A stretch of DNA of 64,000 nucleotides from Nesterenkonia muleiensis. GTDB taxonomy: Bacteria; Actinomycetota; Actinomycetes; Actinomycetales; Micrococcaceae. The translations under genes were made by a program, and so were the position numbers. Location: assembly GCF_003600155.1 (NCBI RefSeq), contig NZ_QWLD01000016.1, positions 186,001-250,000 on the forward strand. Direction: 5' to 3'. This document shows, piece by piece, positions 41,779 to 63,982 of this stretch. The stretch's first letter is position 1, and each line of letters begins with the position of its first letter. Below the pieces are notes generated by a model. It did not search any database and had not been told where the DNA came from. It saw only the letters and a program-made list of their open reading frames with translations.

Positions 41779-41790
41779 GCTCTACAGCCC

Positions 41791-42686: not shown

Positions 42687-42717
42687 TGGCTTTGCGACAT
42701 CTGTTGCAGAGCCCGGC

Positions 42718-43917: not shown

Positions 43918-44101
43918 CCCTGTCACCTCCTCCGCCCGGTCAGTTTCTCCATACCTTAGTGTGACATCGACATCGCTGGAATACCGGTGACCGAGCGACA
44001 AGACGCTCCAGGAGGCCATTCAACATCTGTATGAGTCACCGTCTGAGATTTTCGACGTCCACCCAGAGAACATGACCTTCGACCGTGGTTGACTCGTTCA
44101 T

Positions 44102-46309: not shown

Positions 46310-46312
46310 AGT

Positions 46313-47125: not shown

Positions 47126-47138
47126 ACCCGCACTCTAC

Positions 47139-48347: not shown

Positions 48348-48530
48348 TCGTTGCTCCTGAATAGACGTCGAAAGAAGTGGACCGAGTCCAGTCTCCGGCC
48401 CTGGGAGCAGAGTCCGCGACCGCTCGGCGTCGAATCTTCTCCGCCCGCACTGCAACAGCTGTAGGAAGCCCGATGCGGGGCCGCTCTGCTTGGATGGGCA
48501 GAGTTATGAACCGGCCTGTAGGGGGAAGCT

Positions 48531-48851
48531 TTGGAGCACGGAATCATCATCGACGGATGCAACCCGAGCAACTGGAACTCGCCTGCCGTCGTCGGCAGTC
48601 TGCTGCGGGGCAAGGTCAGCGCCGTCAACGCCACGATCGCGATCTGGGAGGGATTCGCGGAGACCGTCGACGAGACCGCCACCTGGCACCGCAGGTTCCG
48701 TGAGCAGGACAACCTGGTTCACGTCCGTGAAACCGCCGATATACAGCACGCCCATGAGACGGGAAGGCTCGGGGTGATCCTGGGCTGGCAGAACATCTCC
48801 CCGATGGAGAACTTCCCTACCCGCCAGACTGGTGTGAGACACCCGGGCTGA
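48531..48851 (+). pseudogene. N-terminal fragment of a membrane dipeptidase-like (M19) hydrolase
   Basis: The first 95 or so residues follow the family well (IIIDGCNPSNW, VSAVNATIAIWEGFAETVDET, HETGRLGVILGWQNISPMEN). The sequence then loses similarity near 48815, runs into unrelated residues and stops at 48851. Intact relatives are about 350 aa, and the missing part carries most of the metal-binding histidines, so the fragment cannot be active. The break coincides with the change to AT-richer DNA and with the left edge of the island. The TTG/ATG start is ill-defined (ATG-like at 48531). Confidence 0.75.
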
Positions 48852-49168
48852 TTGTGTATGAGACTGAGGACCTACTTGAAAGAGACCTCATCTTCCCCAA
48901 CTAGGGATCCAGGACTTTGACGAAACCGGGGTAGTCGCCACGTGGCGAACGGGCTGCAGAACCATCGACATTGGCTGTCGCCATCGTTAGAAACAGGGAA
49001 TGCGTGATGAACCGGTGCATGTGACGGTCGATGCAACCTGCACCTTGTCGTTGGTCCCTCAGCGGGCTCACCAATGAACTCGCGTACCCTCTCCTGAGAG
49101 ATTGGAGCTGGGCACTCAGCCAGTCAGGGCAATAGTCCCGGATAGAAATCAGGCGAAGTCATCAAAGT
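48852..49168. other. Gene-free island edge
   Basis: These 317 bases lack a convincing frame on either strand. The composition is already lower in GC than the region to the left (the 60 bases at 48841-48900 are half G+C). A 14-base palindrome lies inside it (listed separately). GGTGTGAGACACC at its left edge is itself a small inverted repeat and could be a worn mobile-element end, but no transposase is seen. Confidence 0.5.
48935..48948. repeat. Perfect 14-base palindrome in the island edge
   Basis: TCGCCACGTGGCGA reads the same on both strands. It lies about 220 bases beyond the end of the last transporter gene. It could be a terminator, a regulator site or part of an integration site; nothing around it decides this. 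Confidence 0.45.
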
Positions 49169-50197
49169 CTACTCCTTGATGTCTTCGAAATGCTCAATAG
49201 CACTGGAAATGTCGTAGTCACGGGAACCGTCGTCGTTCACACGGTGACACGCGACACTACCACCGTCGGGCATGATGCGAATGGCTGGTCGCTCCTGCAC
49301 ACAGGTTTCTAAGGCGAAGGGACAGCGGCTGGCGAAGGGACAACCCTTAGTTTGGTTCTCCTGGCTGGGTGGCTCACCTCTTACTTGAATACGGTCCTTG
49401 GTAGTTGTCTTAACAGAAGGTAAAGCGCCAAGTAGAGCGACCGCATAGGGATGTTTGGGCTTGGCGAAGATCCCAGCGGCCGAGGCCTCCTCCATGATCT
49501 GGCCGAAGTAGAGTACGATCACCCTGTCTGCGATGAACTGCACCACGGAGAGGTCATGGGAGATGAAGATAGTAGCCACCTGGTGCTCCTGCTGCAACTG
49601 CTTCATAGAATTGAGCACTTGCGCTTGGACAGAAACATCCAGAGCCGAAACTGCCTCATCGGCTATTAGAACCTCCGGCCGGTTGATCAGCGCGCGCGCT
49701 ATACTGATCCTCTGCCGTTGACCACCCGAGAACTCGTGAGGGAAACGGTCTAGGTAGCTCACGCTCAGCCCCACCGACTCGATTGCCTCCTCTACCCGGG
49801 AACGAATCTCACCGCGAACAAGTCCGTGGGGGCGGAGCGGCTCGGCTAAGGAGCGGCGGATCTTCCAGCGAGGGTTGAAGGACCCGAAGGGGTCCTGGAA
49901 GACCATCTGGCGTAAGCCGGGAATCTTTTTGGTATCCGAATCGGAGTCAGAGGCGTAGGTAACAGCTCCTTCAGTGACTGGCGCCATACCTAACAAAGCC
50001 TTGCCGATTGTAGACTTCCCTGACCCGGACTCACCCACGAGGCCGATTGTCTCTCCGGCCTCGATAAAGAACGAGACATCGTCAATAGCCACAACGTTGC
50101 GTCTACCTCTCAGCGGGTAGTGGACCGAAAGGTTTTCCACTATTAGAGGGGGCGTCTTTTCCTCGCCCCTTGTGCGCTGTCTCTCACGCATATTCAT
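49169..50197 (-). CDS. Oligopeptide-type ABC transporter ATP-binding protein (DppF-like), island
   Basis: The 342 aa ATPase has Walker A GESGSGKSTIGKALL, DPFGSFNPRWKIRRSLAEPL, signature HEFSGGQRQRISIARAL, Walker B VLIADEAVSALD and the C-terminal oligopeptide domain with the cysteines KGCPFASRCPFALETC. Unlike the copy at 35.6 kb it keeps this domain. It overlaps the DppD gene by 4 bases and is the last gene of the ten-gene island operon. Codon use is less GC-biased than in the flanking native genes. Confidence 0.92.
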   Translation of the reverse strand: MNMRERQRTRGEEKTPPLIVENLSVHYPLRGRRNVVAIDDVSFFIEAGETIGLVGESGSGKSTIGKALLGMAPVTEGAVTYASDSDSDTKKIPGLRQMVFQDPFGSFNPRWKIRRSLAEPLRPHGLVRGEIRSRVEEAIESVGLSVSYLDRFPHEFSGGQRQRISIARALINRPEVLIADEAVSALDVSVQAQVLNSMKQLQQEHQVATIFISHDLSVVQFIADRVIVLYFGQIMEEASAAGIFAKPKHPYAVALLGALPSVKTTTKDRIQVRGEPPSQENQTKGCPFASRCPFALETCVQERPAIRIMPDGGSVACHRVNDDGSRDYDISSAIEHFEDIKE

Positions 50198-51213
50198 GCT
50201 GAGGCCACTCCCTCAACACGGTCGGCCAAGCGGTGACATCGGGTAGCATGCTCACCGCTAGTACGGTAAAGCGGAATATGATTACTGCTGCAGTCCTCCT
50301 GCGCCACCTGACATCGGTCAGCGAAGCGACATCCGGTAAAATGGGTGCCAGGCTGGGGCACTGTACCCGAGATGGTGGGCAGCACCTCGGAACCGATGTT
50401 ATTCTCCGGAAGACAGTTCAGTAGCGCTACGGTGTAAGGATGTTGCGGGTCATCGAGCACGTGGCGCATATTGTTGCTGCGCTCCACAACCTGACCGGCG
50501 TACATTACCAGGATCTCATCGCAGGTTTCAGCCACCACTCCGAAGTCATGAGTGATGAACAGTATAGCGGCCCCCTCCTCTTTGCAGAGCTCAACAATAA
50601 GTTGGAGAATCTCAGCCTGAATTGTCACGTCGAGCGCAGTGGTGGGCTCGTCAGCGATGAGCACCTTCGGACGGCATGACATGGCCATGGCGATCATGGC
50701 CCGTTGCCGCATACCTCCCGACAATTCGTACGGAAAGCGACCAAGAAAGCTAGCGGGGCTTGAGATCCCTACGCGCTTGAGTAAGGCAATTGCTCTAGCC
50801 TGGGCGTCCTTGCGGCTCAAACCGAGGTGGATGCGCATCGGCTCGCAGATTTGAAACCCCACGGTAAAGGAAGGATTCATGGAAGACATCGGGTCCTGAA
50901 AGATCACTGCGATTTCCGAGCCTTGGAGCGAGCGAAGCTGCTTCTTTGGCAAGTCAAGGTAGTCCTTGCCCTGAAAAGTGACTTCTCCACTCACCTTGGC
51001 TTCCTTCTTGTCGAGCAGACCCATGAGCGCCAGCGAGATGGTGGACTTGCCGCAGCCCGACTCGCCAACTAGCCCACAGATCTTTCCGCGTTGCAGATCA
51101 AGGGAGACGTTCTCCACCACAGGAATGAGCTTGCGGCCGGCGCCAATGTACGACACCGATAGATTTCGTACGCTCAGAACTGGGCTATTTGGCCGGGTCA
51201 GCTTTGTGTTCAT
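50194..51213 (-). CDS. Oligopeptide-type ABC transporter ATP-binding protein (DppD-like), island
   Basis: The 339 aa ATPase has Walker A GESGCGKSTISLALMGLL, DPMSSMNPSFTVGFQICEPM, signature YELSGGMRQRAMIAMAM, Walker B VLIADEPTTALD and the C-terminal FTGCRFADRCQVAQEDC. I chose the ATG at 51213, behind GAGGAT and 10 bases after the binding-protein stop, over an ATG at 51246 that would overlap that gene. It pairs with the DppF-like ATPase as the two motors of the importer. Confidence 0.92.
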   Translation of the reverse strand: MNTKLTRPNSPVLSVRNLSVSYIGAGRKLIPVVENVSLDLQRGKICGLVGESGCGKSTISLALMGLLDKKEAKVSGEVTFQGKDYLDLPKKQLRSLQGSEIAVIFQDPMSSMNPSFTVGFQICEPMRIHLGLSRKDAQARAIALLKRVGISSPASFLGRFPYELSGGMRQRAMIAMAMSCRPKVLIADEPTTALDVTIQAEILQLIVELCKEEGAAILFITHDFGVVAETCDEILVMYAGQVVERSNNMRHVLDDPQHPYTVALLNCLPENNIGSEVLPTISGTVPQPGTHFTGCRFADRCQVAQEDCSSNHIPLYRTSGEHATRCHRLADRVEGVASA

Positions 51214-51223
51214 AGTCTTATCC

Positions 51224-52777
51224 TCAGTCCTCGTAGTAGAGCTCATGGAGGCGTGGGACGACGCTCACATAGTTGTAATAACCGCTCAGGTTCGAGCTGT
51301 GCGCCACGGTCACGTCAGGGGCATAGAGATAGATCCAGGGGACATCCTCGGCGAGGATGGCCTGGGCCTCGCTCCAGAGCTCCGCTTGGATTTCCTCATC
51401 CTCAAACTCAGCAGTTCGGACAATCTCGTCGAACTCCGGGTTCTCGTAGTTGGAGAAGTTGGCCGCGCCCTCGGAATCCAGCAACCAGCCAAAGTGATAC
51501 TGGGGCTGGTTAATGTAGGAAAGCCAGTTCCCTATCAACGCCTGCGAATCAAAAAACTGCTCCTCGTACTGGGAACTGTTCAGAGTTTGGACACTCATGT
51601 CGATGCCGACCTCTGCATATGCATCCTGCAGAATAGTTGCAGTGTCTGCGGCGAAGGGATCTCCATTGTTAACTATGGCATCGAAAGAGATGTCCCCTTC
51701 AGAATAGCCAGCCTGCTCCAACACCTCTCGAGCCATACTCGGATCATATTCGTACTCCCAGACCTCTGAGGCGTAGTGGGGGGTAATCGGGGAGATGGCC
51801 GATTCGAGCCTCTGGCCGTATCCCATTAGTACTGAATCAATGACTTCCTCGTAAGGAGTAGCCCAAGCAAGAGCCTGCCTCACAGCGACATCGTCGAAGG
51901 GCTCAACCTGCACGTTCAAGGAGAGCCACTCTGTATTGCCGGCATCAGCGGCAATGACCTCAATATTTTCATCATCTTCGAGATCAGCGAGGTTCTGCGG
52001 CGGAATTGAAATAATCAGCTGAACATCATCCTGCTGAAGCTGTTGGATCTGGGTGGTCATTTCTGACACAAAACGGAGTGTGAACTGCTGGATAGCCGGC
52101 TCCTCTCCCCAGTAATCAGGATTTGCAGTCAGCACAGCCTCCGAGGAAGGGTCCCAGGATTCTAAGATGTAGGGGCCAGAGCCCGCTGCGTTGCTAGCCA
52201 GATAGGAGTCGATGTCATCAACCTCGTTCTCCAAGTACGCACTGTCCATAATGGACATCATGCCGAAGTAGTCGGGTAGGACAGGTTGCGGCGTATGCAG
52301 CTGGAACTCGACGGTGTGCTCGTCGATAGCCTCGACGCTCTCGATATTCGCCAGCTGATAAAGCGAACTGAGCTCGAAGCCCTCGAAGGACCAGAGCACA
52401 TCAGCGGCAGTGAACTCGTTCCCAGACTGGAAGGTAACATCGTTGCGAAGGTTGAAAGTCCAGGTAAGGTCGTCTTCGCTGACCTCCCAGGACTCAGCCA
52501 ACGCCGGGTCGTACTCCCCATCGACCTGGTTACCGTCCTCCCCAATGTGATTGGTAACGAGGGTATTGTAGGAGGCAAGCAAGATAGTATTGGGCACTGC
52601 ACCATGGGCAGCTCTCGGATCAAGAGTGGCTCCACCATCAGTGAATGCCAGGGTGGCCGTATTTCCAACTACACCGGAATCGCCACCAGGACTGATCTCG
52701 GAATCGTCACCACAGGCACTCATCAACAGTGCCGCAAGGGCCAAACTGGCAAATATTCTAATATTTACTTTAGTCAT
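51224..52777 (-). CDS. Oligopeptide-type substrate-binding lipoprotein, island
   Basis: The 517 aa precursor has a lipobox MSAC (C22) and a family-5 solute-binding fold: YDPALAESWEVSEDDLTWTF, NLRNDVTFQSGNEFTAADV, GSGPYILESWDPSSE, FDDVAVRQALAWATPYEEVI. The order is unusual, as the binding protein lies after the two permeases and before the ATPases. A good ribosome site (AAAGGAT) precedes the ATG. The sequence just upstream (52778-52829) is very AT-rich. Confidence 0.92.
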   Translation of the reverse strand: MTKVNIRIFASLALAALLMSACGDDSEISPGGDSGVVGNTATLAFTDGGATLDPRAAHGAVPNTILLASYNTLVTNHIGEDGNQVDGEYDPALAESWEVSEDDLTWTFNLRNDVTFQSGNEFTAADVLWSFEGFELSSLYQLANIESVEAIDEHTVEFQLHTPQPVLPDYFGMMSIMDSAYLENEVDDIDSYLASNAAGSGPYILESWDPSSEAVLTANPDYWGEEPAIQQFTLRFVSEMTTQIQQLQQDDVQLIISIPPQNLADLEDDENIEVIAADAGNTEWLSLNVQVEPFDDVAVRQALAWATPYEEVIDSVLMGYGQRLESAISPITPHYASEVWEYEYDPSMAREVLEQAGYSEGDISFDAIVNNGDPFAADTATILQDAYAEVGIDMSVQTLNSSQYEEQFFDSQALIGNWLSYINQPQYHFGWLLDSEGAANFSNYENPEFDEIVRTAEFEDEEIQAELWSEAQAILAEDVPWIYLYAPDVTVAHSSNLSGYYNYVSVVPRLHELYYED

Positions 52778-52829
52778 AATTTTAATCCTTTTATTGAACG
52801 AATGAAATAATATTTAAAAGTGGATTTTA

Positions 52830-53729
52830 TTATAATTTATATCGAGGATCAAAGACATCTCTTAACGTGTCACCTAATAGATTAAAGCTCAGAACTAATA
52901 TAGCTATAGTAAATCCAGGAAAAAAGGTTATCCACCATTGCCCAGAGAGAATATAGTGCCTACCCTCAGAGACCATGAGACCCCATTCTGCATCCGGAGG
53001 TTGTGCCCCGAGACCAATAAAGCTGAGTGCCGAAACGTTAAGAATAGCGAAACCTAGAGCTAATGTGAGCTGCACTAAGATAGGGCTAATGCAGTTAGGA
53101 AGAACATGAGTGAACATAATCCGAAGGCTGCTAATACCTGATATCCTAGCTGCATAAATGAACTCGCTCTCCTTCATGCTCAGGACCGTGGAGTAGGTAA
53201 CGCGAGCGAAAGGGGCAATAGCGCCAAAGGCTATTGCTATCACGGTGGTCCAGAACCCTGGACCAATAGCGGCGGCGATACTCATAGCGAGAATTAAATC
53301 CGGAAAAGAAAATAAAATGTCTATAAATCGGTTTATAATATTTCTAGTATAACCGGGGAAATATCCAGACACAAGGCCGAGAGTTACACCAAATATTGCC
53401 GATCCAAAAACAGCCAAGGCGGCCGCTGAAAGTGTAATACGACCGCCATTGATGACACGAGAGAAAATATCGCGCCCAAAGCTATCGGTGCCGAAATAAA
53501 ACTCAGCTGAGGGTGCATTGAGTGCAGACATTGCGTCACGCGCGCTCGGTTCATGGGTCTGGATCCACGAGGCGAAGATAGAAGCGATTACTGCAATAAG
53601 GATCACCATAGCTCCAACAATGGCGAGGGGATTGCGCAACGCCCATTTCAAGGCAGAGCTAAATCGGATACTGGAGGCAGCAATTCTCGCGGTTCCGAGC
53701 CTTGGTGTTGTCACTACCGGATCTCTCAT
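52830..53729 (-). CDS. Oligopeptide-type ABC transporter permease (DppC-like), island
   Basis: The 299 aa permease has the DppC N-terminal helix WALRNPLAIVGAMVILIAVI, the periplasmic FYFGTDSFGRDIFSRVINGGR, and the ATPase-contact loop EFIYAARISGISSLRIMFTHVLPN, ending with DTLRDVFDPRYKL. Its DNA is the most AT-rich coding sequence in the window (the 60 bases at 53281-53340 hold only 16 G or C), a clear sign of foreign origin. The start overlaps the DppB stop by one base (TGATG). Confidence 0.93.
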   Translation of the reverse strand: MRDPVVTTPRLGTARIAASSIRFSSALKWALRNPLAIVGAMVILIAVIASIFASWIQTHEPSARDAMSALNAPSAEFYFGTDSFGRDIFSRVINGGRITLSAAALAVFGSAIFGVTLGLVSGYFPGYTRNIINRFIDILFSFPDLILAMSIAAAIGPGFWTTVIAIAFGAIAPFARVTYSTVLSMKESEFIYAARISGISSLRIMFTHVLPNCISPILVQLTLALGFAILNVSALSFIGLGAQPPDAEWGLMVSEGRHYILSGQWWITFFPGFTIAILVLSFNLLGDTLRDVFDPRYKL

Positions 53730-54745
53730 CAGACTCCCCTTGTTTTCGGGTCGACGATCATCTGGGCCACATCGGCCAACAAATTTACAAAAATGAACAA
53801 CCCCGCAGTAAGCACCATTACTGTCTGGACGGGCGCGTAGTCATTGGCGTTAACCGCTGTGTAGATATAGCTGCCGATGCCGGGCCACCCGAAGATCACC
53901 TCAACAACTACTGCACCAGCAAGCAGATACCCCAATTGCATGGCGGAAATAGTGAAGATCGCCGGTGACGCATTCTTCAAAGCATGTCCACGAATGATAA
54001 AGCTAGGTGAAACGCCCTTAGCCCTTGCAGAGCGAATATAATCGCGTCGAAGGACATCCAGCATTGCGGAGCGAGTCATACGCGAGATGACAGCGACGCC
54101 AACTAGGCCAAGGGCAAAGGTGGGCAGTACCAGGTGTTGAGCAGCCATGATTGCGGTCCCCCACTCGCCCTGCAGAATCGCATCGAGTACGTAAAGGCCG
54201 GTGATACGCTCCGGGACATAGGCGTTAGCACTTAACCTTCCAGATGGGGCGGGCGCCACCTGCAGCTGAACATAAAAAATCTGGATGAGCTGAATGCCCA
54301 GCCAAAAGCTAGGAACAGAGAGCCCAACGAGGGCACCCACGCGAAGCAGCAGGTCCAGGGTGCCACCTGCCCGGGTCGCCTGCAGCATACCAATAGGTAT
54401 GCCGATAACCAGAGCGAAGATGAATGCCCATAATGCTAGCTCAATAGTGGCTGGCAAGCGATTTCCCAAATCCTCCACCACAGGACGACTGGTGTGCCAA
54501 GCGATACCAAAATCTAGACGAAATAGATTCCAGATGTAATTCAAAAACTGCATCCACAACGGATCGTTTAACCCCATCTGCTCTCGCAAGGCCTCCAACT
54601 GGAGTTCACTCGCTTGGGTTCCGAGGACGGCGCGAGCAGGGTCCCCCGGCAGAACTCGGTTGACGAGAAAGGCAAGAGTAGCTACACCTAGCAAAGTAGG
54701 AATGGTACTTATCACCCGCTGTAGAATCATGATCGTCGGTAGCAT
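53729..54745 (-). CDS. Oligopeptide-type ABC transporter permease (DppB-like), island
   Basis: The 338 aa permease has FLVNRVLPGDPARAVLGTQASE near the N-terminus, six helices and the loop DYIRSARAKGVSPSFIIRGHALKN that contacts the ATPase. It ends with DVAQMIVDPKTRGV. I chose the ATG at 54745, behind GAGGAGAAAATC, over the ATG at 54766. It follows the amidase by 33 bases and begins the transporter part of the operon. Confidence 0.92.
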   Translation of the reverse strand: MLPTIMILQRVISTIPTLLGVATLAFLVNRVLPGDPARAVLGTQASELQLEALREQMGLNDPLWMQFLNYIWNLFRLDFGIAWHTSRPVVEDLGNRLPATIELALWAFIFALVIGIPIGMLQATRAGGTLDLLLRVGALVGLSVPSFWLGIQLIQIFYVQLQVAPAPSGRLSANAYVPERITGLYVLDAILQGEWGTAIMAAQHLVLPTFALGLVGVAVISRMTRSAMLDVLRRDYIRSARAKGVSPSFIIRGHALKNASPAIFTISAMQLGYLLAGAVVVEVIFGWPGIGSYIYTAVNANDYAPVQTVMVLTAGLFIFVNLLADVAQMIVDPKTRGV

Positions 54746-54778
54746 GATTTTCTCCTCATCCTTCATGCCAGCTAAGGG

Positions 54779-56200
54779 TCAGACTCTTGCAGGCTCAGCA
54801 AGAAATTTGTGCCACTCGAAAACCGATTCCATCTCGGCTGCTACCTTCAAGATCAGATCCTCCCTGAAAAGTCCCCCCACCAGTTGCGCACCCACAGGAA
54901 GTCCATTCGAATCGAAATGAACAGGCAAGCTAATCGCGGGAAGCCCCGACATGTTGCACAAGCTTGTAAATGCGCAATCGCGTCCGAGGAGCGTGTTCTT
55001 CCAGACCCCAAGGTGAGCCTTATCCCTCACATCGTCATAGACTTCCCCCACTCGACTTGCCAAACTCGCCATAGTGGGAGTGACCAGGAGGTCGAAATCA
55101 CGCCCCCACTGTGCCACGATTCGCCGAGACTCAAACTGCATCCTAAAAGCAAGATCTACATACTGGCCAGCATGCGCGCTCTCCGCGCGACTGCGCCATG
55201 TCTTGACATACGAGTCTGCTTTTTCGGGTTCGTCTAATGGAGTAGCCCAGGACGCAGCCCCGAGCAACAGATCTCCGAATCCATCGACAAGCTCAGGGCT
55301 GAACACTTCTGGTTCAACAGGGAACACAGTATGACCCGTGCCTTCTAGTTCAGTGGCAAGTCGTTTTGCGGCATCGACATTTTGGGGGTCGACATAAACA
55401 TCAATAGGCGCCTCAGTCATAAGACCAATTCTGAGACGTCTAACCGGTCTATATAATGTATCTAAATATGTTTCATTTGGTATCGGTGGCGCATAACATG
55501 CGAGGGGATCTGGGACACTAAGAATATCAAGCAGTGCAGCCGTATCTTCCACGGTGCGAGTTATCACGCCGTCAGTAACGGCATCTTCCATACTTCTGAT
55601 TATCGGGGTGATGCGACTCCTCGTAGGCTTGAGACCTATCAAGCCGGTCAGTGAGGCAGGAATTCGAGTGGAACCGGCTCCATCTGAGGCATGCGCTAAT
55701 GGCGCAAGTCCTCCAGCTACAGCTGAAGATGCACCCCCAGATGATCCGCCTGAAGTGTAATCGATATTCCAAGGGTTTCGCGTTTTGCCAAACCTCACGT
55801 TCTCAGAAACACTCAATAGGCCAAGTTCCGGTGCATTGCTATGCCCCATAAGAACAAACCCAGCCTGTTCAAGGCGTTCTACGGCTGGCACACTGAAGTC
55901 CGAGAGCCTCTCCCTGACTCCGTATGATGCGTTGCTGAATGGCTGACCTTGCACTGGACTAAGGCACTTAATAGGTATCGGGACTCCTTCAAACTGGCGC
56001 GCCTTGCCACTGGTGATTCGGCGATCCGCTTCATGCGCGCGATTCATGACATCTTCGTCATCAAGCCAAATAATGGAATTAATGTCACCGTCAATCTCGT
56101 GTATTCGTTTCAGATAATACTCCGCTGCTTCAATTGCTGACACATCTCTGCTTCTCAATTTGTCTCTTAATTCATGTGCAGTCAGTGACGGTTTTAACAT
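54779..56200 (-). CDS. Amidase-signature-family amidohydrolase
   Basis: The 473 aa product keeps the whole Ser-cisSer-Lys triad: K78 in GVPIPIKCLSPV, S153 in DYTSGGSSGGASSAVAGG and S177 in HASDGAGSTRIPASLTG. Such enzymes hydrolyse carboxamides of many kinds (AmiE-like, GatA-like, hydantoinase-linked carbamoyl or acyl amides). It is not GatA, since no GatB or GatC is near. It lies between the aldehyde dehydrogenase and the transporter genes, so it probably acts on the imported compound or an intermediate. Confidence 0.92.
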   Translation of the reverse strand: MLKPSLTAHELRDKLRSRDVSAIEAAEYYLKRIHEIDGDINSIIWLDDEDVMNRAHEADRRITSGKARQFEGVPIPIKCLSPVQGQPFSNASYGVRERLSDFSVPAVERLEQAGFVLMGHSNAPELGLLSVSENVRFGKTRNPWNIDYTSGGSSGGASSAVAGGLAPLAHASDGAGSTRIPASLTGLIGLKPTRSRITPIIRSMEDAVTDGVITRTVEDTAALLDILSVPDPLACYAPPIPNETYLDTLYRPVRRLRIGLMTEAPIDVYVDPQNVDAAKRLATELEGTGHTVFPVEPEVFSPELVDGFGDLLLGAASWATPLDEPEKADSYVKTWRSRAESAHAGQYVDLAFRMQFESRRIVAQWGRDFDLLVTPTMASLASRVGEVYDDVRDKAHLGVWKNTLLGRDCAFTSLCNMSGLPAISLPVHFDSNGLPVGAQLVGGLFREDLILKVAAEMESVFEWHKFLAEPARV

Positions 56201-56286
56201 TAAAATATCTTTCTTTTATTTATTAATCTGATATAGGTCGCTTTGGTTCAAGTTTTAATGTTCGTTCCAGTTAACATTTTATCTAA

Positions 56287-57699
56287 CTAATGAAGGCCAC
56301 TTTCATTTATATATAATAGCCTTTTATTGACAAACTCATCCATTCCTAGCGGGCCAAGCTCACGACCGAAGCCGGACCGTTTAATGCCTCCAAAGGGCAT
56401 GTCAGGCGCTCCCGACTCCCCAATATTCACCTTTGCCATGCCACATTCCAGCTGCTGAGCTATTTCGCAGGCCAACTCTTGATCCTCAGAGAACACAGCT
56501 CCTCCCAGTCCATAGGGCGAGCTGTTAGCGATAGCTAATGCTTCTTCAGCGGTCTTCACACGATAGAGCGATATCACTGGCCCAAAGACTTCCTCATGAT
56601 AGATATCCATCTCCGGCCCTATCCCCGACAGGACAGTCGGTTCCATCCATGCTCCAGGCTGGTCCGGCCTACCACCTCCTACGTGAAGCACCGCACCTTG
56701 TTCCACTGCGTGTCTGACCTGCCGATGAACCCTCTGTGCGGCCACCTCCGAAGAGAGTGGTGAATAACTGTTTCTAGCAGGGGCTAGCTGATCGCCTGGA
56801 AACATTTCCGAAGCAGCTTTGCTGACATGGTCGACAAACTCATCGAAAATGTCATCATGAACAAGTAGCCTCTTATTGGAAGTACACGATTGACCCATAT
56901 TCTGCATTCGCTGATTGAATGCCTGTAGGGCAACACTTTGAACGTTTTTGGCATCGAGATAGATATGCGCATCTGATCCACCGAGTTCCAGTACCACCTT
57001 CTTCAGATTCCGCCCAGCAACCTCAGCGATCGCCGAACCAGCACGTTCGGAACCCGTAACAGAAATTCCCTGAACCCGAGAGTCGCTAATCACAGTCTCC
57101 ACCTGCTCATGAGTGGCAAAGATGTTTTGATATACTCCTTGAGGCAAGCCGCTATGCTTCAAGAGACCTTCTACCGCTAAGGAGGCTTGAGGACATATCT
57201 CTGCATGCTTCAGGAGGATGACGTTTCCTAGAATAAGATTAGGAGCCGCAAAACGTGCTATCTGATAATAAGGAAAGTTCCAGGGCATTATGCCCAAAAT
57301 CACACCTAAGGGCCTCGATTGTATGATCGCTTTATGGCCACCTTTATTCTTGATTAGCTTATCCGCAACCAAGTCCTCAGCGTTGTCAGCGAAGTACCGG
57401 AAGATCAGTCCGCAAAATTTGACTTCTCCCTGCGCGGCAGGTAGTGACTTCCCCATTTCTCTCGTAGCGATTGCTGCGAGCTCTTTCTGCCTCTCATCGA
57501 AGGAGTCGGCGATCTGGTATGCAATATCAGCACGCTCCTTCATACCCAAGCGTGACCAAGACTCATAGGCTTCCTGAGATTTATCTAAGACAACCTGAAG
57601 AGATTCATTTCTTAAATATTCAAAGCGTTTTTCTATTTCATTAGATGAAGGGTTTTGTGTACGAAAACCTTTTTCTTCTGTTATTTGTAAATTATTCAA
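56287..57699 (-). CDS. NAD(P)-dependent aldehyde dehydrogenase (succinate-semialdehyde dehydrogenase-like)
   Basis: The 470 aa product has the Rossmann part (GVILGIMPWNFPYYQIARFAAP, ILLKHAE), E238 in VVLELGGSDAHIYL and the nucleophile C272 in NMGQSCTSNKRLLV, plus EEVFGPVISLYRV and PFGGIKRSGFGRELG. The short N-terminus and QSCTSNKR motif resemble GabD/Sad-type enzymes that oxidise semialdehydes. Its likely job is to turn an aldehyde released by the hydrolases into an acid. It is separated by 119 AT-rich bases from the AroM gene and 86 from the amidase gene. Confidence 0.92.
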   Translation of the reverse strand: MNNLQITEEKGFRTQNPSSNEIEKRFEYLRNESLQVVLDKSQEAYESWSRLGMKERADIAYQIADSFDERQKELAAIATREMGKSLPAAQGEVKFCGLIFRYFADNAEDLVADKLIKNKGGHKAIIQSRPLGVILGIMPWNFPYYQIARFAAPNLILGNVILLKHAEICPQASLAVEGLLKHSGLPQGVYQNIFATHEQVETVISDSRVQGISVTGSERAGSAIAEVAGRNLKKVVLELGGSDAHIYLDAKNVQSVALQAFNQRMQNMGQSCTSNKRLLVHDDIFDEFVDHVSKAASEMFPGDQLAPARNSYSPLSSEVAAQRVHRQVRHAVEQGAVLHVGGGRPDQPGAWMEPTVLSGIGPEMDIYHEEVFGPVISLYRVKTAEEALAIANSSPYGLGGAVFSEDQELACEIAQQLECGMAKVNIGESGAPDMPFGGIKRSGFGRELGPLGMDEFVNKRLLYINESGLH

Positions 57700-57818
57700 G
57701 ATTTAACCTTTTTCGCCAATTTTGCATTTATTTTCCATTAAAAATTGGGTATAAATATTACATAAATATATAATGCAGCTCATTTTCTCACCGTACTTCA
57801 CATATTCTTAGAGGACGA

Positions 57819-58598
57819 TCACTTGGCGCCCAGCAATTTCAGCATTTCAGCGGCAAATTCGGCAGCTGCGTAACGAGCGTGCACAACTTGAACCCCCGTC
57901 TTTTCCGCAAGAAAATTTCTTTGTTCTCTTGTGTAACCCATGCAGTCTAATATTATTAGATCAGATCCATTTTCCTTGAATTTCCTCCCTACTTCAAGAA
58001 AGTTATAAATATTTTCTGCGTATGGAGAGCAGTTTTGAACTTGTAGTTTTCTAATCGAGGGCAGTCGGGAAAACTTTTCTTCAACTAATCCGATCTGTTC
58101 AGGAAGAGGACAAATAATGCTCACTCTGTTGTATTTTTCTGCTAGTTCTCTAACTGTGTAATACACCGCGTGCCCTGAAACTATGAGAGGCTTAGAATGA
58201 GGAATCTCCGAGAATTCTCCTGTGCAGGCAATCAGAATCGCATCGCACTTGTCTTCCACTTCCAGCTTCTGCACCGCAATTGTCGTACGAGAGGAGACCA
58301 ACGCTTTGCTGACCACAACACTCTCTCCGCTCCTGAGCTTTGTCACGAGTCCAGGAGCATCCCCCACAGCTTTGCTCGAATAGATCTCATCTTCGGATGT
58401 ATCGTCAAGAGCGCCTCGTTCAATAAGTTGAATGCCTGGCAAGAGACTTCTTAACTCGCTCATCATACTCACCCTTGGTGTTTGTCCTACTGAAATAATT
58501 CCCATTCTAGGATTCTCATACGATATTTTGTTTGTTAAAGAAAATTTGATCACTTCACGAATTTTTGATGCGTCGACTAGGTCGATTTTTTCTTTCAT
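57819..58598 (-). CDS. AroM-family protein (Asp/Glu racemase-like clan)
   Basis: The 259 aa product matches AroM from residue 32 on (MGIISVGQTPRVSMMSEL). It keeps two cysteines placed as in racemase-clan enzymes, C125 in ILIACTGEF and C219 in IILDCMGYTR. The function of AroM is unknown; in enteric bacteria it accompanies aroL, but here it sits in a hydantoinase operon. About 31 residues precede the conserved start; they are retained because the ATG at 58598 has an AGGAGAAAGCAGGA site and the next ATG does not. I infer a role in stereochemical inversion or a related step on the imported substrate. Confidence 0.8.
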   Translation of the reverse strand: MKEKIDLVDASKIREVIKFSLTNKISYENPRMGIISVGQTPRVSMMSELRSLLPGIQLIERGALDDTSEDEIYSSKAVGDAPGLVTKLRSGESVVVSKALVSSRTTIAVQKLEVEDKCDAILIACTGEFSEIPHSKPLIVSGHAVYYTVRELAEKYNRVSIICPLPEQIGLVEEKFSRLPSIRKLQVQNCSPYAENIYNFLEVGRKFKENGSDLIILDCMGYTREQRNFLAEKTGVQVVHARYAAAEFAAEMLKLLGAK

Positions 58599-58616
58599 TC
58601 CTGCTTTCTCCTTGAT

Positions 58617-60248
58617 TCAGGTCCCGATTGGAAGTATCGGGCTGTCAAGGCGGGCCAAAGGTCCGGCTACTTTGACGGAAATCCGTATGTTTTGTTGAGT
58701 GCTATACGACATTGGAGACTCCGATACGTCAACAACTTCAACTAGCAGAGGATCTGCTCCCGCTTCGATAGCTTTGTCGATTGCAGCCCTAGAGGCTGCA
58801 TCAATCGCCACTTTGCGCTCCTCGAAATTGCTGACCTGCTGAGCACGGCCTCCCACCAGGGATAATGCGGCCCCAACAGCGTTGGCCACACCTCCATGTT
58901 TGGGGTACACGATTCCTTCTACGCCAGTTAGACCTTCTGGAACCAAAAAACCACCTCCACCAACGATAACGAGCGGAAGGTTTGCTTTTCCGTGAGAGAG
59001 GCGGTCGACCGCGTCTTGTATACGTTCATGGGCATTGATCAGGGCACACTGCATAGCTTGTCCTGTGCCAGAACTCAAATGAGAGCTGATTTTCTGACGC
59101 TCCTTTCTGCTCAAGATATTCGTCTTGACTCCACAGGCAACTGCTGCGTCAGTGAGAGTGGGGGTGGATCCGCCGAAGATCAGTGCTTCAGTGTGAAGGT
59201 GATGCCCAACGGAGCCAGAACCAATATCTCCGGTGCTGGGATCAATGCGAGTGCCCCCACCAACTCCGATGCTGATGATGTCCGGCATTCGGAAATTCGT
59301 ACGTACCCCACCGATCTCCCGAGGCAGTGTCGATTCTCGGGGGAATCCACCGGTCACCACGCCTAAGTCACTCGTAGTGCCCCCTACGTCGACAACGATC
59401 GCGTCTGTGACTCCGGAGAGCAAGGCTGCACCGCGAATGGAATTAGCCGGCCCAGAACCAATGGTCAGCACTGGGAAACGTGCAGCATAGTTCACTGCCA
59501 TAAGCGTGCCATCATTCTGGGCAAAGTAGACCGAGGAGTTCTCTAGGCCTTGTTCGTCGACGACAGTCATGAGGCCCTGAGTTACACTCTTAGCTACTCC
59601 ATACAGCGCAGCATTGATCACTGTGGCGTTCTCCCGCTCAAGCAGACCAATAGCCCCGATATCATGGCTGCGAGAGACCGGCACTGAAAGCCCCAGATGA
59701 TCGAGGACGATCTCTTCGACTTCCCGCTCCTGCTCCGGGAAGGAAGGGCTGAAGATCCCACAAATGGCGACGGCGTCGATAGGGCCTTTGATGCTATCGA
59801 GGAAGCGCCGGATAGAATCCTGATCAAGAGGACTGATCGGCATGCCATCGGCCATGAATCCGCCTGGCAGCACCGCTGATCCAGCAAGAATTGCTTTTCG
59901 AAGATCTTCAGGCCAGCCCATCAGCGGAGGAAAGCCCGTTGACGCGGGAGCGCCGAGACGAAGGACCGCAACGCGACCTAGATTCCGGCGATCCACAATT
60001 GCGTTAGTGGCGTGAGTGGTGCCCAACATGACTCTGGAGACTCGCGAGCGTTGATCTCCCAGGCTGTCGAGTACGGACTCGAGCGCTGCGCGAATTCCAC
60101 TGGTTACATCTTCCGTTGTAGCTTCCTTAGTGGAGGTCAGAATGGTGTTGTCCACGTCCAACACCACGGCATCTGTATTCGTCCCTCCCACGTCGATGCC
60201 AACAGAGTATCCACCCTGCTCGAACTCGTTCTGAAAATGCGCTGTCAT
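58617..60248 (-). CDS. Hydantoinase/oxoprolinase-family protein (HyuA-like, short form)
   Basis: The 543 aa product begins with GYSVGIDVGGTNTDAVVLD, the ATPase-like phosphate loop of the hydantoinase/oxoprolinase family, and has MLGTTHATNAIVDRR, AIGLLERENATVINAALYG, DVGGTTSDLGVV (second phosphate loop) and ISIGVGGGTRIDPSTG. It lacks the further 150 or so C-terminal residues of N-methylhydantoinase A, as is usual for members that pair with a DUF917 gene. It is probably an ATP-dependent enzyme opening a cyclic amide or hydantoin-like ring. It overlaps the DUF917 gene by 4 bases. Confidence 0.9.
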   Translation of the reverse strand: MTAHFQNEFEQGGYSVGIDVGGTNTDAVVLDVDNTILTSTKEATTEDVTSGIRAALESVLDSLGDQRSRVSRVMLGTTHATNAIVDRRNLGRVAVLRLGAPASTGFPPLMGWPEDLRKAILAGSAVLPGGFMADGMPISPLDQDSIRRFLDSIKGPIDAVAICGIFSPSFPEQEREVEEIVLDHLGLSVPVSRSHDIGAIGLLERENATVINAALYGVAKSVTQGLMTVVDEQGLENSSVYFAQNDGTLMAVNYAARFPVLTIGSGPANSIRGAALLSGVTDAIVVDVGGTTSDLGVVTGGFPRESTLPREIGGVRTNFRMPDIISIGVGGGTRIDPSTGDIGSGSVGHHLHTEALIFGGSTPTLTDAAVACGVKTNILSRKERQKISSHLSSGTGQAMQCALINAHERIQDAVDRLSHGKANLPLVIVGGGGFLVPEGLTGVEGIVYPKHGGVANAVGAALSLVGGRAQQVSNFEERKVAIDAASRAAIDKAIEAGADPLLVEVVDVSESPMSYSTQQNIRISVKVAGPLARLDSPILPIGT

Positions 60249-61396
60249 TCAATATCCCCCTGATTATCAGGGCGCATCGTCTGTGCGAGGCGTTTCAACG
60301 GTTGGTAATCGATGTCGTAGCCAAATGCCCGAGGGCCGGCAATCTCCAGCCCTCGAGTAGTACGCCACAAGGGATCACTAGGCCAAGCCAACACTGAGAT
60401 GCGCTGGCCGAAGCGCAACTGTTCGGTAGAGACGGCGTGACCCGTCTCGCTGTCCACAACGGTCACTAAGTCAGGAACACTCGCCAGCACTTCTCCAGCT
60501 TCCAGAACCAGGAGATTCTCATTCTGCAGTTCCACCCGAAGCAGCCTGTCGCGCTGTTCTCCAAGACCCGCCACAGTGACCGCGCCCCGGACAAATCCGC
60601 CTTCTGTACGGCGCTCAACGTCGACGATTTTACCGGTGATGAACTTCTCCGCGCCGAGACTGCCTACTAGAGAAGAAACGGGATCCTCAGAGTTGAGCAG
60701 AACGTGGCCAACCTCGATCACGCGGCTGACTGAGCGTTCGATGACGGCACCGGGAACATGTTCAGCTTTAAGTGGTGAGGCAGCCAGACAGATAGAACCG
60801 CTCGCTACGGTCGATGCCCGAACGTGCCTCTCCAGCCATGTAGCGTTAATGGTTCGAATAACCACAACATTGCCTACCACGTCGCTAAGGACGCGGAAGT
60901 CGCGAGGCACCCCGGCGACATTCATCGCGACCATCGTTGCTTCGGGGAAGGCTCTACCCATCCCATCGGCGTCGAGGACGTCCAGCCCGAGCTGTGCTGC
61001 CCAACCGGCAGGAGCTACTCCGTTACTACCGCCAATCTCGCCAGGCATAACTGCTGTAACAGGCCGGCCGAGAGTCTGTTCAATCTCACGGAGAAGAGTC
61101 TCCGGTTGGTGCTCCGCAGAGAGCATCTCCACTCCCACTGTCGGCGCGCCCACTCCCGACATCACTATGACCAGGTCGTCGTCGGTCAGTTCTTCGACCT
61201 GGCGCAAACGAACCGTTCCGTGTTTCTCTAACGCAGCCTTCACCACGATCTGTGCACTATCGACTGATCCACCCCCGCCGGTGCCGAAGATTGCCGCCCC
61301 AGCAGCTAGCGCACTCACGTCAGAAGCAGCGATGGTCTTATGACCTGTCTGGAGACCATCAAGAGTCGCGAGATCATTGTGTGTGTCGATCACCAT
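60245..61396 (-). CDS. DUF917/S-methyl-thiohydantoin desulfurase-like (S-Me-THD) family protein
   Basis: The 383 aa product has the family's glycine-rich segment AGAAIFGTGGGGSVDSAQ (35-52), VMSGVGAPTVGVEML, MPGEIGGSNGVAPA and FPEATMVAMNVAG. One characterised relative desulfurises S-methyl-thiohydantoin in ergothioneine breakdown; most others are uncharacterised. It nearly always stands beside a hydantoinase-like gene, as here. It is the first gene of the minus-strand operon, 72 bases from the divergent PucR start, and its promoter lies in that gap. Confidence 0.87.
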   Translation of the reverse strand: MVIDTHNDLATLDGLQTGHKTIAASDVSALAAGAAIFGTGGGGSVDSAQIVVKAALEKHGTVRLRQVEELTDDDLVIVMSGVGAPTVGVEMLSAEHQPETLLREIEQTLGRPVTAVMPGEIGGSNGVAPAGWAAQLGLDVLDADGMGRAFPEATMVAMNVAGVPRDFRVLSDVVGNVVVIRTINATWLERHVRASTVASGSICLAASPLKAEHVPGAVIERSVSRVIEVGHVLLNSEDPVSSLVGSLGAEKFITGKIVDVERRTEGGFVRGAVTVAGLGEQRDRLLRVELQNENLLVLEAGEVLASVPDLVTVVDSETGHAVSTEQLRFGQRISVLAWPSDPLWRTTRGLEIAGPRAFGYDIDYQPLKRLAQTMRPDNQGDIE

Positions 61397-61454
61397 TCTT
61401 AGAGCTTAGGCAGCAACAGCCTCAGCTCAATGTTGTATTGACACATAAAATAAT

Positions 61455-61465
61455 TACAATTTGTA
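61455..61465. promoter_or_regulatory. Short inverted repeat at the PucR start, candidate operator
   Basis: TACAA-T-TTGTA lies 3 bases before the ATG of the PucR gene and 58 bases from the DUF917 start. It sits in a very AT-rich 30-base stretch that also holds TTGACA at 61438-61443. It is small, so the assignment is tentative. Confidence 0.35.
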
Positions 61466-61468
61466 GTT

Positions 61469-62959
61469 ATGGCACAAATTTTGATCGAAAAGCTCCTTCA
61501 GCAGGCGTCGCGACTCGGCATTACACCGATCGCAGGGCCATTGAGAGGAGTACCTGTCTCCGGAGTTGAGATCGCCGAGATCGGTCAACTCAACACGTTG
61601 TCTCCCGGAACCCTTGTAGTAGCAGACTTAAAGGAACCACCCCCTTCGTATCGGCTGGACATCGCCGTCCGGCAGGCCAGCGCCCGGCGGCTGGGCGGGC
61701 TGGTCCTCCCTGCCGATATGAGCCTCTCGATGACCTCGCAGGATCTAGCAGAGCGCGGAGGCGTCCCCATCCTGTGCGCACCCGGGGTCACGCCTTCTGA
61801 CCTGGCTGTGGCAGTGGACCGTATGGTGGGCGCCGGTGCCGCCGACACCGTCACCCGGGTGCAGTTCGCGGTCAGCCGCGCACGCGAGGCGGCCCTGAAC
61901 GAGCCCGAGGAGCCGGTCGAAGTGATTCTCGCCGCAGCTGGCCAGGCTCTCGGGGCCGCCGTGGAGCTCCAGGAGGATCCGGCGGTGAGATGGAGCGAAC
62001 CGGCCGCCGTGTTCATCGGTGAGGTTCCCCGCGGCAGACTAGTCTGCCGGGCCCCGGCGGAGGACCCGGTCGCCGACGCCGCCCACCTGGCGCTGCCGGT
62101 GATCGCCTCGGTGCTCTCCCGGGCGCTGCAACGACAGGTCGAACACCGCTTCGCGCCCAAACAGTCATCAGCAGAGCTCATCGCCCAGCTGGTGCTCGCC
62201 GACTCCTCCCGGGTCGAGACTCTGGCTGCGCAAGCCTACGGCCTGGGCTTTCCGGTCCAGCATTCCCACGTGGTCGGCTGGATCAAACCCACCGCCCGCG
62301 AGGACGGCTCAGGGCGTCCGCCCAGGGCGCTGCAGTCAGCGGTGGAACTCTACGCACTGGAGCTGTTCGAGTCGCGTGCGGAGCTGTGGCACATCGCCTT
62401 CAGCCGCGATGACGCCATTCTGGTCTCCACGGAGCGGCCCGGCTCCGGGGATCACCAGCGCAGGCTGCGGGAAGTGGCCGCCGACATCGCCGACTATGCT
62501 CAGACTCTGGCCGGCGAGGACTGGGACGTCACCGTCGGCCTGGGCACCCCGCAGACGGGAGCGGCGGGTCTTCGGCAGTCGGGGACGGAAGCGCACATCG
62601 CCGTTGAGACGGCTGTGGCAGGGGGGCGGGCCGGGCATATTCAGGTCACCGATGTCACCGGACTGCGCCGGGTGCTGCTGGACTTCTATGCCTCTCCGAC
62701 CAGCCGCGAACTGCTCCAGGACATGCTGCGACCGCTGGACGCCCCCGGCAGGGCCAAGGCGGACACTGCGGTGCGCACCCTGCTGGCCTATCTGAGCAAC
62801 CGAGGCTCACCAGCGAAAGCAGCCGCTGAGCTCAATCTCCATCCCAACGCCGTCAGCTACCGGATCCGGAACATCGAAGACAAGCTTCAGCTCGATCTCA
62901 GAGATGCGGACACGCAGTTCGCCCTGCAGCTGGCCTGCCGAGTGCGACTGCTGAGCTGA
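61469..62959 (+). CDS. PucR-family regulator, probable activator of the island operon
   Basis: The 496 aa product has an N-terminal PucR_1-like domain (residues 1-120, GLVLPADMSLSMTSQDLAERGGVPIL), a central region with HVVGWIKPTAREDG and the C-terminal helix-turn-helix AELNLHPNAVSYRIRNIEDKLQLDL. It is divergent from DUF917 and so very likely controls the catabolic operon. Base composition changes inside the gene: the first 60 or so codons are AT-rich (17 G or C in the 60 bases at 61441-61500), then from about 61650 the DNA is as GC-rich as the chromosome (43 of 60 at 61681-61740). The island edge therefore lies within the coding sequence. Confidence 0.88.
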   Translation: MAQILIEKLLQQASRLGITPIAGPLRGVPVSGVEIAEIGQLNTLSPGTLVVADLKEPPPSYRLDIAVRQASARRLGGLVLPADMSLSMTSQDLAERGGVPILCAPGVTPSDLAVAVDRMVGAGAADTVTRVQFAVSRAREAALNEPEEPVEVILAAAGQALGAAVELQEDPAVRWSEPAAVFIGEVPRGRLVCRAPAEDPVADAAHLALPVIASVLSRALQRQVEHRFAPKQSSAELIAQLVLADSSRVETLAAQAYGLGFPVQHSHVVGWIKPTAREDGSGRPPRALQSAVELYALELFESRAELWHIAFSRDDAILVSTERPGSGDHQRRLREVAADIADYAQTLAGEDWDVTVGLGTPQTGAAGLRQSGTEAHIAVETAVAGGRAGHIQVTDVTGLRRVLLDFYASPTSRELLQDMLRPLDAPGRAKADTAVRTLLAYLSNRGSPAKAAAELNLHPNAVSYRIRNIEDKLQLDLRDADTQFALQLACRVRLLS

Positions 62960-63082
62960 CTATTGTGTTCCTCACACAGATTTTGCCAATCATCTGGTGA
63001 TCAATCACAAGACTGCACCGGTGATTGCCCCTACTCTGAGGACGAATCAGGAGCACAACGCCCACCCCGAGGAGAGATCCCA

Positions 63083-63982
63083 ATGCCGTATGCGCTCATC
63101 GCCTCCGGTCAGATCTACTACGAGACCGACGGCGACCCTGACGCGCTGCCGCTTCTGCTGGTGGAGGGCGGGTTCACCCAGCTGATCGGCTGGGCGCCGG
63201 ACTTCGTCGAGCAGCTCACCGATGCCGGTTTCTTCGTCATCCGCGCAGACAACCGTGACACCGGGCTCTCCACGCACTTCGGCGGCCCGGAGGATCTCGA
63301 CGGCGGCTACCAGCTCAAAGATATGGCCGATGACATGATCGCCGTGCTCGACGACGCAGGTGTGGACTCCGCCCACTGCGCCGGTCGCTCGATGGGCGGA
63401 ATGATCAGCCAGGTGATGGCCCTCGAATATCCGCAGCGGGTACGCAGCCTGGGCCTGTTCTACTCGATCCCGGGACAGGACCCCCGGTACATCCTGCACG
63501 GACCGCGGGAGGAGCTGAGCACCCCGCAGCCCCGCTTCTCCGCCGCGGAGCTTCTGGAGCGGGCTCTGGCCGCACACCGGGCTTTCATGCCGCACGGTGA
63601 TCTCTGGGGGGAGCAGCAGTGGTATGAGGAGGAGACCCGGCGCTACATCGGCGACTCCTACGCCCGGCGGTACTCCCCCGACGGCGCCCCTCGTCAGTGG
63701 AACGCCCTCAAACGTGCGCCCGAGCGCCTGGCAAAGCTGAGGTCGGTCACCGTCCCCGCCGCAGTGGTCCATGGCCGCGAGGACCATGTGCTGCACTGGT
63801 GCGCCGCAGTGGACATCGCCGAAGCGATACCGTCGGCAGAGCTGCACGTGTATCCGGGAATGGGGCATTTCTTCCCGCCAGCGCTCATCCCGGAATTCGT
63901 GCAGATCCTGCGGCGGACCGCTCAGCTGGCTGAGCTCACCATTCCACCCGGCCGGTCGCGGCAAGCTCCCCACTGTCGTTGA
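63083..63982 (+). CDS. Alpha/beta hydrolase
   Basis: The 299 aa product has the usual fold: LLLVEGGFTQLIGWAPDF near the oxyanion hole, FFVIRADNRDTGLSTHF, the nucleophile elbow CAGRSMGGMISQV, an acid in AAVVHGREDHVLHW and the catalytic histidine in PGMGHFFPP. The RADNRDTGLS motif is common in esterase/haloperoxidase-like hydrolases of actinobacteria. The ATG at 63083 has GAGGAG about ten bases upstream. It is 123 bases after the PucR gene and has chromosomal base composition. Confidence 0.88.
   Translation: MPYALIASGQIYYETDGDPDALPLLLVEGGFTQLIGWAPDFVEQLTDAGFFVIRADNRDTGLSTHFGGPEDLDGGYQLKDMADDMIAVLDDAGVDSAHCAGRSMGGMISQVMALEYPQRVRSLGLFYSIPGQDPRYILHGPREELSTPQPRFSAAELLERALAAHRAFMPHGDLWGEQQWYEEETRRYIGDSYARRYSPDGAPRQWNALKRAPERLAKLRSVTVPAAVVHGREDHVLHWCAAVDIAEAIPSAELHVYPGMGHFFPPALIPEFVQILRRTAQLAELTIPPGRSRQAPHCR

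Follow-up and report, generated by a model that had tools for sequence, protein, structure and literature searches.

A possible hybrid catabolic operon joining a PucR-DUF917-HyuA cassette to an AroM-importer module in Nesterenkonia muleiensis

The stretch of DNA considered here (the window) comprises 64,000 nucleotides of the genome of Nesterenkonia muleiensis (assembly GCF_003600155.1, contig NZ_QWLD01000016.1, positions 186,001 to 250,000) and carries ten minus-strand genes, from one for a DUF917 protein (60245-61396) to one for an importer ATPase (49169-50197), that have about an even chance of being a hybrid catabolic operon for the uptake and opening of a peptide-derived cyclic amide. One part of the operon would be a PucR-DUF917-HyuA cassette; where its relatives have an importer after HyuA, it would have instead a module of lower G+C that comprises AroM, an aldehyde dehydrogenase (ALDH), an amidase and an AroM-type oligopeptide importer, and this module would now lie behind the PucR promoter. 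The gene content, the kinship of the genes in two directions, the conserved promoter region and the retention of catalytic-type residues in AroM, HyuA and ALDH are observed features of the locus.

The original prediction, of ten minus-strand genes of catabolic content with overlaps or gaps of at most 119 bases and a divergent PucR gene, was borne out in its coordinates, in the families it named (Pfam, NCBIfam) and in its view of the gene content, and all ten open reading frames (ORFs) are intact. The DUF917/S-Me-THD-like protein, probably the hydrolytic partner of HyuA judging from its sequence, overlaps by 4 bases a short-form (543 aa) HyuA-type ATP-dependent amide-activating subunit (58617-60248; PF05378, PF01968), which is followed, after an 18-base gap with a purine-rich stretch ahead of the next start, by the Asp/Glu-racemase-like AroM (57819-58598). 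Gaps of 119 and 86 bases respectively precede the ALDH (56287-57699; PF00171), which is succinate-semialdehyde-dehydrogenase-like with C272 and E238 present, and an amidase-signature hydrolase (54779-56200; PF01425, 267.7 bits). Permease B (53729-54766; PF00528) lies 12 bases further on and overlaps permease C (52830-53729; PF00528, PF12911) by 1 base; a 52-base gap leads to a family 5 substrate-binding protein with a lipobox-like start (51224-52777; PF00496, 296.4 bits), which overlaps ATPase D (50194-51246) by 23 bases, and ATPase D overlaps ATPase F (49169-50197) by 4, both ATPases matching PF00005 and PF08352. These five make up a full oligopeptide/dipeptide ATP-binding cassette (ABC) set in Pfam terms (SBP_bac_5, two BPD_transp_1, two ABC_tran with oligo_HPY), and the importer proteins are below every NCBIfam cut-off among the matches listed. 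As for the separate promoters that had been named as evidence against a single operon, promoter-like sites are not in excess (8, vs 9.6 in shuffles). Separated from DUF917 by a divergent promoter region of 72 bases (61397-61468), the PucR/CdaR-type regulator (61469-62959, plus strand; PF17853) passes the model for the C-terminal domain HTH_30 (PF13556; 66.4 bits, cut-off 27), and the N-terminal PucR domain, which we take to be PF07905, was not among its matches at E <= 0.001.

Relatives of the cassette were sought by a contig scan of named genomes with the window DUF917 as the single query, an approach that reaches close relatives only; the kinship of the cassette and importer proteins was compared by tblastn, and each neighbourhood spans roughly 20 kb at most, a few of them being cut short where the contig stops. 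The scan yielded eight relatives of 55-74% identity (L010-L017; L010-L016 are from Nocardiopsis, Murinocardiopsis, Brevibacterium sp. S22 and Pseudonocardia), in which PucR is divergent from DUF917-HyuA (one stretch holds only the start of pucR) and importer genes follow HyuA in all eight. HyuA is 54-69% identical across the eight loci and PucR 49-67% identical to the six complete regulators of L010, L011 and L013-L016, with 36% to L017; an M20 enzyme was detected in five. Five of seven loci have 72-73 bases between DUF917 and PucR, as the window does; L016 has 67 and L017 fewer. In an alignment that took in L010, L011 and L013-L017, CATTG is kept in 6/7, a TAGGCTC-like block ahead of the DUF917 ATG in 6/7 and an exact ACAAATT in 3/7, the region of L017 not being conserved. 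The TAGGCTC-like block (61397-61408) stops five bases short of the DUF917 ATG; were it a -10 element, the transcript could be leaderless. Thus L010-L016 share with the window PucR, DUF917 and HyuA at 49-74% identity and a divergent promoter of 67-73 bases; unlike the window, they have a different importer, in which permease C is fused to an ATPase in several, and neither AroM nor the ALDH and amidase were found in any of the eight loci (E <= 1e-10).

The importer of the window is nearer to those of four AroM/DUF1177 loci (L024, L066, L073, L075) than to those of the cassettes. Permease B is 44-50% identical to the former vs 29-34% to the latter, permease C 44-47% vs 31-33% (44% for L017), the binding protein 33-37% vs 22-27% and the ATPases 45-49% vs 38-46%. 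A permease tree groups the window with the same four loci at a support of 90/85, and the approximately unbiased (AU) test, at p 0.0008 and a difference of 36.4 log units, rejects a clade of the window permease with those of the seven cassette loci L010-L016. The four loci also share the order permease B-permease C-binding protein and an AroM 27-38% identical to that of the window; they differ in carrying DUF1177 and an M20 ArgE/DapE deacylase, with pepE in three of four, and DUF917, HyuA, ALDH and amidase were not found in them. On these comparisons the PucR-DUF917-HyuA cassette and the AroM-importer module appear to be two differently related parts, with two enzymes, the ALDH and the amidase, left unplaced. 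The idea that the ten genes form one acquired pathway is not supported by kinship, which splits them; composition, however, groups all ten.

The composition of the operon was compared with that of 43 other ORFs of the window, picked by a composition filter that itself favours high G+C at third codon positions (GC3); these have a mean GC3 of 0.79 (standard deviation, sd, 0.045; range 0.68-0.86). The ten operon genes range from 0.41, in AroM, to 0.65, that is 3.1 to 8.5 sd below this baseline, and within HyuA the value drops from about 0.6 to 0.5 in the direction of AroM. PucR and the neighbouring alpha/beta hydrolase (0.77) show no departure from the baseline. The first 50 codons of pucR have a GC3 of 0.56 and the remainder 0.74-0.86, and the right composition edge falls inside the 5' end of pucR, a position from which it seems that the ten genes had come together earlier, in a host of lower G+C, and displaced a native copy by recombination. 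At the left edge, G+C is 0.54-0.57 at 48,750-49,250 and 0.62-0.68 further left. The higher-G+C side holds the end of a 106-codon remnant of an M19 dipeptidase (48531-48851, plus strand; PF01244, 27.5 bits, profile positions 40-119 of 319), to which no match was seen in the other 34 of 35 genomes, so that an empty, pre-insertion site was not found. GC3 is even over 14 genes in Brevibacterium S22 (0.63-0.73) and over five in Murinocardiopsis (0.88-0.92), hence the composition break is not seen in those two. That the locus had been acquired, as predicted, agrees with its distribution. Among 58 genomes (its own, 29 congeners and 28 others) AroM exceeds the Pfam cut-off only in its own and in one of another family, the congeners giving 0/29 with weak sub-cut-off matches in two; a DUF917 relative was likewise seen in its own genome and one other, and in 0/29 congeners. 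A full-length PucR orthologue was found in 0/24 congeners and 0/14 other genomes, and the M20 enzyme of the cassette type, encoded elsewhere in the window, has best congener matches of 51% and 45% vs 60-67% to five Nocardiopsis and Brevibacterium loci. Given the distribution of these four proteins, the locus does not look like part of the genus core.

AroM passes its Pfam family (PF07302) with 179.1 bits against a cut-off of 23.8, but does not reach that of the E. coli-type equivalog NF007788 (143.2 vs 198) and scores 28.3 bits (E 1.8e-6) against PF01177, below the cut-off of 31. Its closest relatives, at 37-39%, are in AroM/DUF1177 loci, and in the samples by order, family and class no AroM but itself exceeds 39%. 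Racemases of the superfamily carry a second active-site cysteine, according to passages of PMC4996985. C125 and C219 of the window protein are the superfamily's two active-site cysteines, both present, and the inversion step that had been predicted would fall to AroM on the strength of these residues. The pair is Cys/Cys in 17 of 19 aligned AroMs, Ser/Ser in two and mixed in none. The two Ser/Ser proteins, from Shinella HZN7 (L018) and one of the two AroMs in Neorhizobium (L022), have a C-terminal LuxR-type helix-turn-helix (HTH), identified as Pfam GerE in L018 and read from the alignment in L022, and they look like AroM-derived sensor-regulators; that catalysis was lost as DNA binding was gained suggests a molecule of the pathway as the ligand of the AroM pocket. 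Both fusions (L018 9986-10936, L022 10007-10897) lie beside DUF917-HyuA on Rhizobiaceae plasmids, and in Neorhizobium the second AroM, which is Cys/Cys, adjoins the fusion.

AroM was sampled by phylum, order, family and class, in overlapping samples whose counts include the window's own genome, and matches were found in 6/396 (5 over the cut-off), 17/396, 3/245 and 6/325 genomes respectively. The neighbourhoods examined leave out G484, G523 and G702 (order), G848 (weak, family), the plasmid match H9 and the weak matches G005, G006, G078 and G197 beyond 3 kb. The 29 AroM loci besides the window contain DUF1177 (23), an OPT transporter (19), pepE (15), a PF01177-type racemase (14), an Opp permease (9), M20 (8), an M29-like peptidase (8), DUF917 (8) and HyuA (4). 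DUF1177 occurs in none of the four HyuA-bearing loci vs 23 of the 25 HyuA-less ones, one of the two exceptions being a 3.3 kb contig (Fisher p 0.0006, the loci not being independent). The window fits this mutual exclusion, which suggests that HyuA-DUF917 and DUF1177 are alternatives beside AroM. The HyuA-bearing loci, on Salipiger abyssi pPABY2, Neorhizobium pNCHU2750a, Shinella HZN7 pShin-03 and in genome G1079, resemble the window in combining DUF917, HyuA and AroM and have peptide-type or OPT importers, G1079 also having a PucR-type regulator; they differ from it in gene order and in a DUF917 only 35-40% identical, the ALDH and amidase were not found in them, and two have the AroM-HTH fusion. 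In the G1079 locus (L087, 4114-11955) HyuA, two DUF917 genes, the PucR-type regulator, AroM and an OPT transporter follow one another, and the same parts appear to have been assembled there independently. A further locus (L045, 7167-12178) has HyuA followed by three consecutive DUF917 genes. The ten-gene order for which a search had been proposed occurs in none of the 29 AroM neighbourhoods fetched. The combination had been put forward as an undescribed pathway, and this needs qualification; AroM is found repeatedly in the company of DUF917 and dipeptide importers, and this has already been described near cyclodipeptide oxidases, in sections of PMC11055893 that report these families, together with PF01177 racemases, as enriched there.

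The DUF917 protein passes PF06032 and PF20906 (151.8 and 201.7 bits vs 27) and occupies the place of CapB/HyuB in the gene pair, no domain of that metal subunit having been found in the ten operon proteins (E <= 0.001). The best solved relative of HyuA is 6yra_A, named 5-oxoprolinase and 696 aa long, which by its length and residues is probably the caprolactamase subunit CapA. D19 and D287 of HyuA align with residues 11 and 295 of 6yra; CapA Asp11 and Asp295 were mutated in work whose authors conclude that they have a role in ATP binding (PMC8453981, in part). The same portions of that paper propose that a lactim is phosphorylated in CapA and hydrolysed at the metal site of CapB. A match between K41 of the window protein and a CapA lysine was considered, but an alignment check failed to uphold it. 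The window thus shares with CapAB, HyuAB and 5-oxoprolinase the HyuA subunit family and the two phosphate-site aspartates, and differs from CapAB and HyuAB in having DUF917 instead of HyuB/CapB; its HyuA has 543 aa and CapA 696. The invariant columns of eight diverse DUF917 proteins include no His and no Cys, so the chemistry of DUF917, if it is a hydrolase, must differ from that of CapB.

The remaining two enzymes, ALDH and amidase, were found in 0/29 AroM loci and 0/8 cassettes (tblastn E <= 1e-10), the reference set consisting of the window proteins and seven annotated plasmid loci and being self-matching by construction. The amidase has as its best solved relative the 6-aminohexanoate-cyclic-dimer hydrolase NylA (3a2p, E 2e-62, and the variant 3a2q), the next other being GatA (4wj3, E 4.6e-49), a resemblance at family level; its closest relatives, at 45-48%, are in 5 of 217 other genomes sampled, and an Opp/peptide-type importer comes directly after the amidase in 3 of 7 neighbourhoods fetched. 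The ALDH, whose best solved relative is 4ogd, is below the cut-off of each of the 25 NCBIfam matches listed out of 42 and is the least explained part of the operon. An M20 amidohydrolase (44102-45331), about 4 kb beyond the operon's end and 60-67% identical to those of the cassettes, bears on the nature of the product. A thought that the amidase replaces the cassette M20 was dropped, as the M20 is present. The TIGR01891 amidohydrolase cut-off is passed by the M20s of the window, L010, L015 and Shinella L018, and an ArgE/DapE deacylase cut-off by the AroM-linked M20s of L024, L066 and L073; against the carbamoylase model TIGR01879 the window M20 scores 40.7 bits with a cut-off of 204, and no N-carbamoyl amino acid hydrolase model is among the matches listed for the ten operon genes. 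These scores point to an N-acyl or dipeptide product and not an N-carbamoyl one. The substrate originally envisaged, a cyclic amide or hydantoin-like molecule, is likely to be a cyclic amide, whilst its hydantoin half is weakened because the M20 partners score as acylases or deacylases.

We infer co-transcription, each of the reactions, the substrate and the order of the steps. The ABC importer would take up a cyclic amide of peptide origin; a cyclic dipeptide or close analogue is the likeliest, and is favoured because of the M20 types, the oligopeptide importer and the enrichment reported in part of PMC11055893. AroM would then invert a stereocentre through its two cysteines, HyuA would activate a ring amide with ATP for hydrolysis by DUF917, the amidase and the M20 amidohydrolase would cut the linear amide, and the ALDH would oxidise an aldehyde arising from a side chain or a breakdown product.

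A number of observations weigh against this scheme. An aminotransferase or oxidase that could supply the aldehyde is absent from the operon. The amidase family is broad, which makes its likeness to the cyclic-dimer hydrolase weak evidence, and the named relatives of DUF917 take sulphur off thiohydantoins. As regards a hybrid origin, the permease grouping, at 90/85, does not reach the level that the tool marks with a star; the importer of a fifth AroM/DUF1177 locus, L042, matches less well (40% for permease B, 42% for permease C, 43 and 40% for the ATPases), its binding protein at 26% being no nearer than those of the cassettes; and the importers of the plasmid-borne AroM loci L018, L020, L022 and L023 take a middle position (permease B 35-38%, permease C 35-46%, binding protein 26-29%). 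DUF917 and HyuA, moreover, have the low G+C of the module, a shared composition that agrees with all ten genes having arrived together rather than with an exchange inside this genome. It may be, although we regard it as somewhat unlikely, that a single old ten-gene operon was moved whole from an unsampled lower-G+C lineage and that the kinship split reflects incomplete sampling; the low G+C common to all ten and an edge inside pucR rather than at HyuA-AroM would then be explained, but the different importer after HyuA in the eight cassette loci, the grouping of the window importer with the AroM/DUF1177 loci and the other orders in which AroM, DUF917 and HyuA are neighbours elsewhere would not. 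An assembly or contamination join is scarcely credible. The assembly consists of 57 contigs and the stretch stands apart in composition, but its contig is 323 kb long with no less than 75 kb on each side of the locus, HyuA and AroM are separated by just the 18-base gap with its purine-rich stretch, the ten ORFs are intact, and conservation of the DUF917/PucR promoter extends over the composition edge.

Two further explanations concern the substrate. The use of a (thio)hydantoin, with DUF917-HyuA opening, or desulfurising and opening, a 5-substituted hydantoin, AroM as hydantoin racemase and the amidase as carbamoylase, appears unlikely. DUF917 does match two (thio)hydantoin desulfurase equivalogs, though far short of their cut-offs (NF058529 98.2 of 440 bits, NF058532 115.3 of 450); HyuAB of Pseudomonas NS671 opens 5-substituted hydantoins (PMC8453981, in part); a PF01177 racemase-like protein is encoded at 40990-41778; and the authors of PMC11055893, in the sections concerned, themselves lean towards hydantoin- or allantoin-like substrates for such clusters, which also tells against a cyclic dipeptide. 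However, no carbamoylase model is matched above its cut-off and the M20s of six related loci are of acylase/deacylase types, HyuB is absent, and an oligopeptide-type importer would be an odd choice. A lactam or nylon-oligomer route, in which HyuA-DUF917 and the amidase would open a lactam or cyclic diamide ahead of semialdehyde oxidation, is decidedly improbable: the solved relatives of HyuA and the amidase and the succinate-semialdehyde-dehydrogenase-like ALDH agree with it, but all these matches are at family level only and the operon is without an aminotransferase and without CapB.

AroM, DUF917 and DUF1177 occur in many bacteria and, within the literature examined (in part), a settled function exists only for a few named DUF917 enzymes. 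The locus narrows the question of AroM, which travels with importers and amide- or peptide-cleaving enzymes; it indicates that, behind one regulator, a complete importer module can take the place of a different one, and it makes a recycling pathway that is for the most part uncharacterised open to test. A broader proposal, which we offer as speculation and hold to be doubtful, is that DUF917 is a new hydrolytic partner of HyuA-type ATPases without CapB's Asp/His metal site and forms with an AroM epimerase a widespread salvage of D/L cyclic dipeptides, that DUF917-HyuA and DUF1177 can replace each other as modules for opening rings or amides, and that some Rhizobiaceae AroM folds became ligand sensors through LuxR-type HTH fusion with both cysteines lost.

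Two features outside the operon did not figure in the original prediction, the alpha/beta hydrolase and a related gene set on the left. Downstream of PucR lies the alpha/beta hydrolase (62963-63982, plus strand; PF00561), which is 70% identical and adjoins PucR in L014 and L015, has a 45-residue match in L011, is 52% identical but elsewhere in L016 and was not found in the other four cassette stretches. On the left flank, a related gene set (32350-45331; Pfam) contains two Amidohydro_3 proteins, ATPase F2, a permease C-ATPase fusion, permease B2, binding protein 2, the racemase-like protein, a second alpha/beta hydrolase, a second PucR and the M20 amidohydrolase; the second importer, M20 and second PucR are 4-17 kb away from the end of the operon. 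Its importer is 53-70% identical to that of Brevibacterium S22 (L015), one Amidohydro_3 58% and the M20 60%, the second PucR has a partial match (56% across 94 residues, where the stretch ends) and the second alpha/beta hydrolase one of just 25%. In Brevibacterium S22 the matching genes sit directly beside the hydrolase-PucR-DUF917-HyuA set in one locus, so that the window holds most of a Brevibacterium-type locus, rearranged and with the AroM-ALDH-amidase-importer module in the place of the first importer. The racemase-like protein (PF01177, 29.5 bits, just below the cut-off of 31) was not found in the Brevibacterium S22 genome in a search without a positive control. Adjoining the M19 remnant, at 45353-48455, are genes for a Fer2 reductase, a MOSC protein and a FAD enzyme resembling N-methyltryptophan oxidase (NF008425, 291 bits vs a cut-off of 257), which may together form a unit for amine demethylation.

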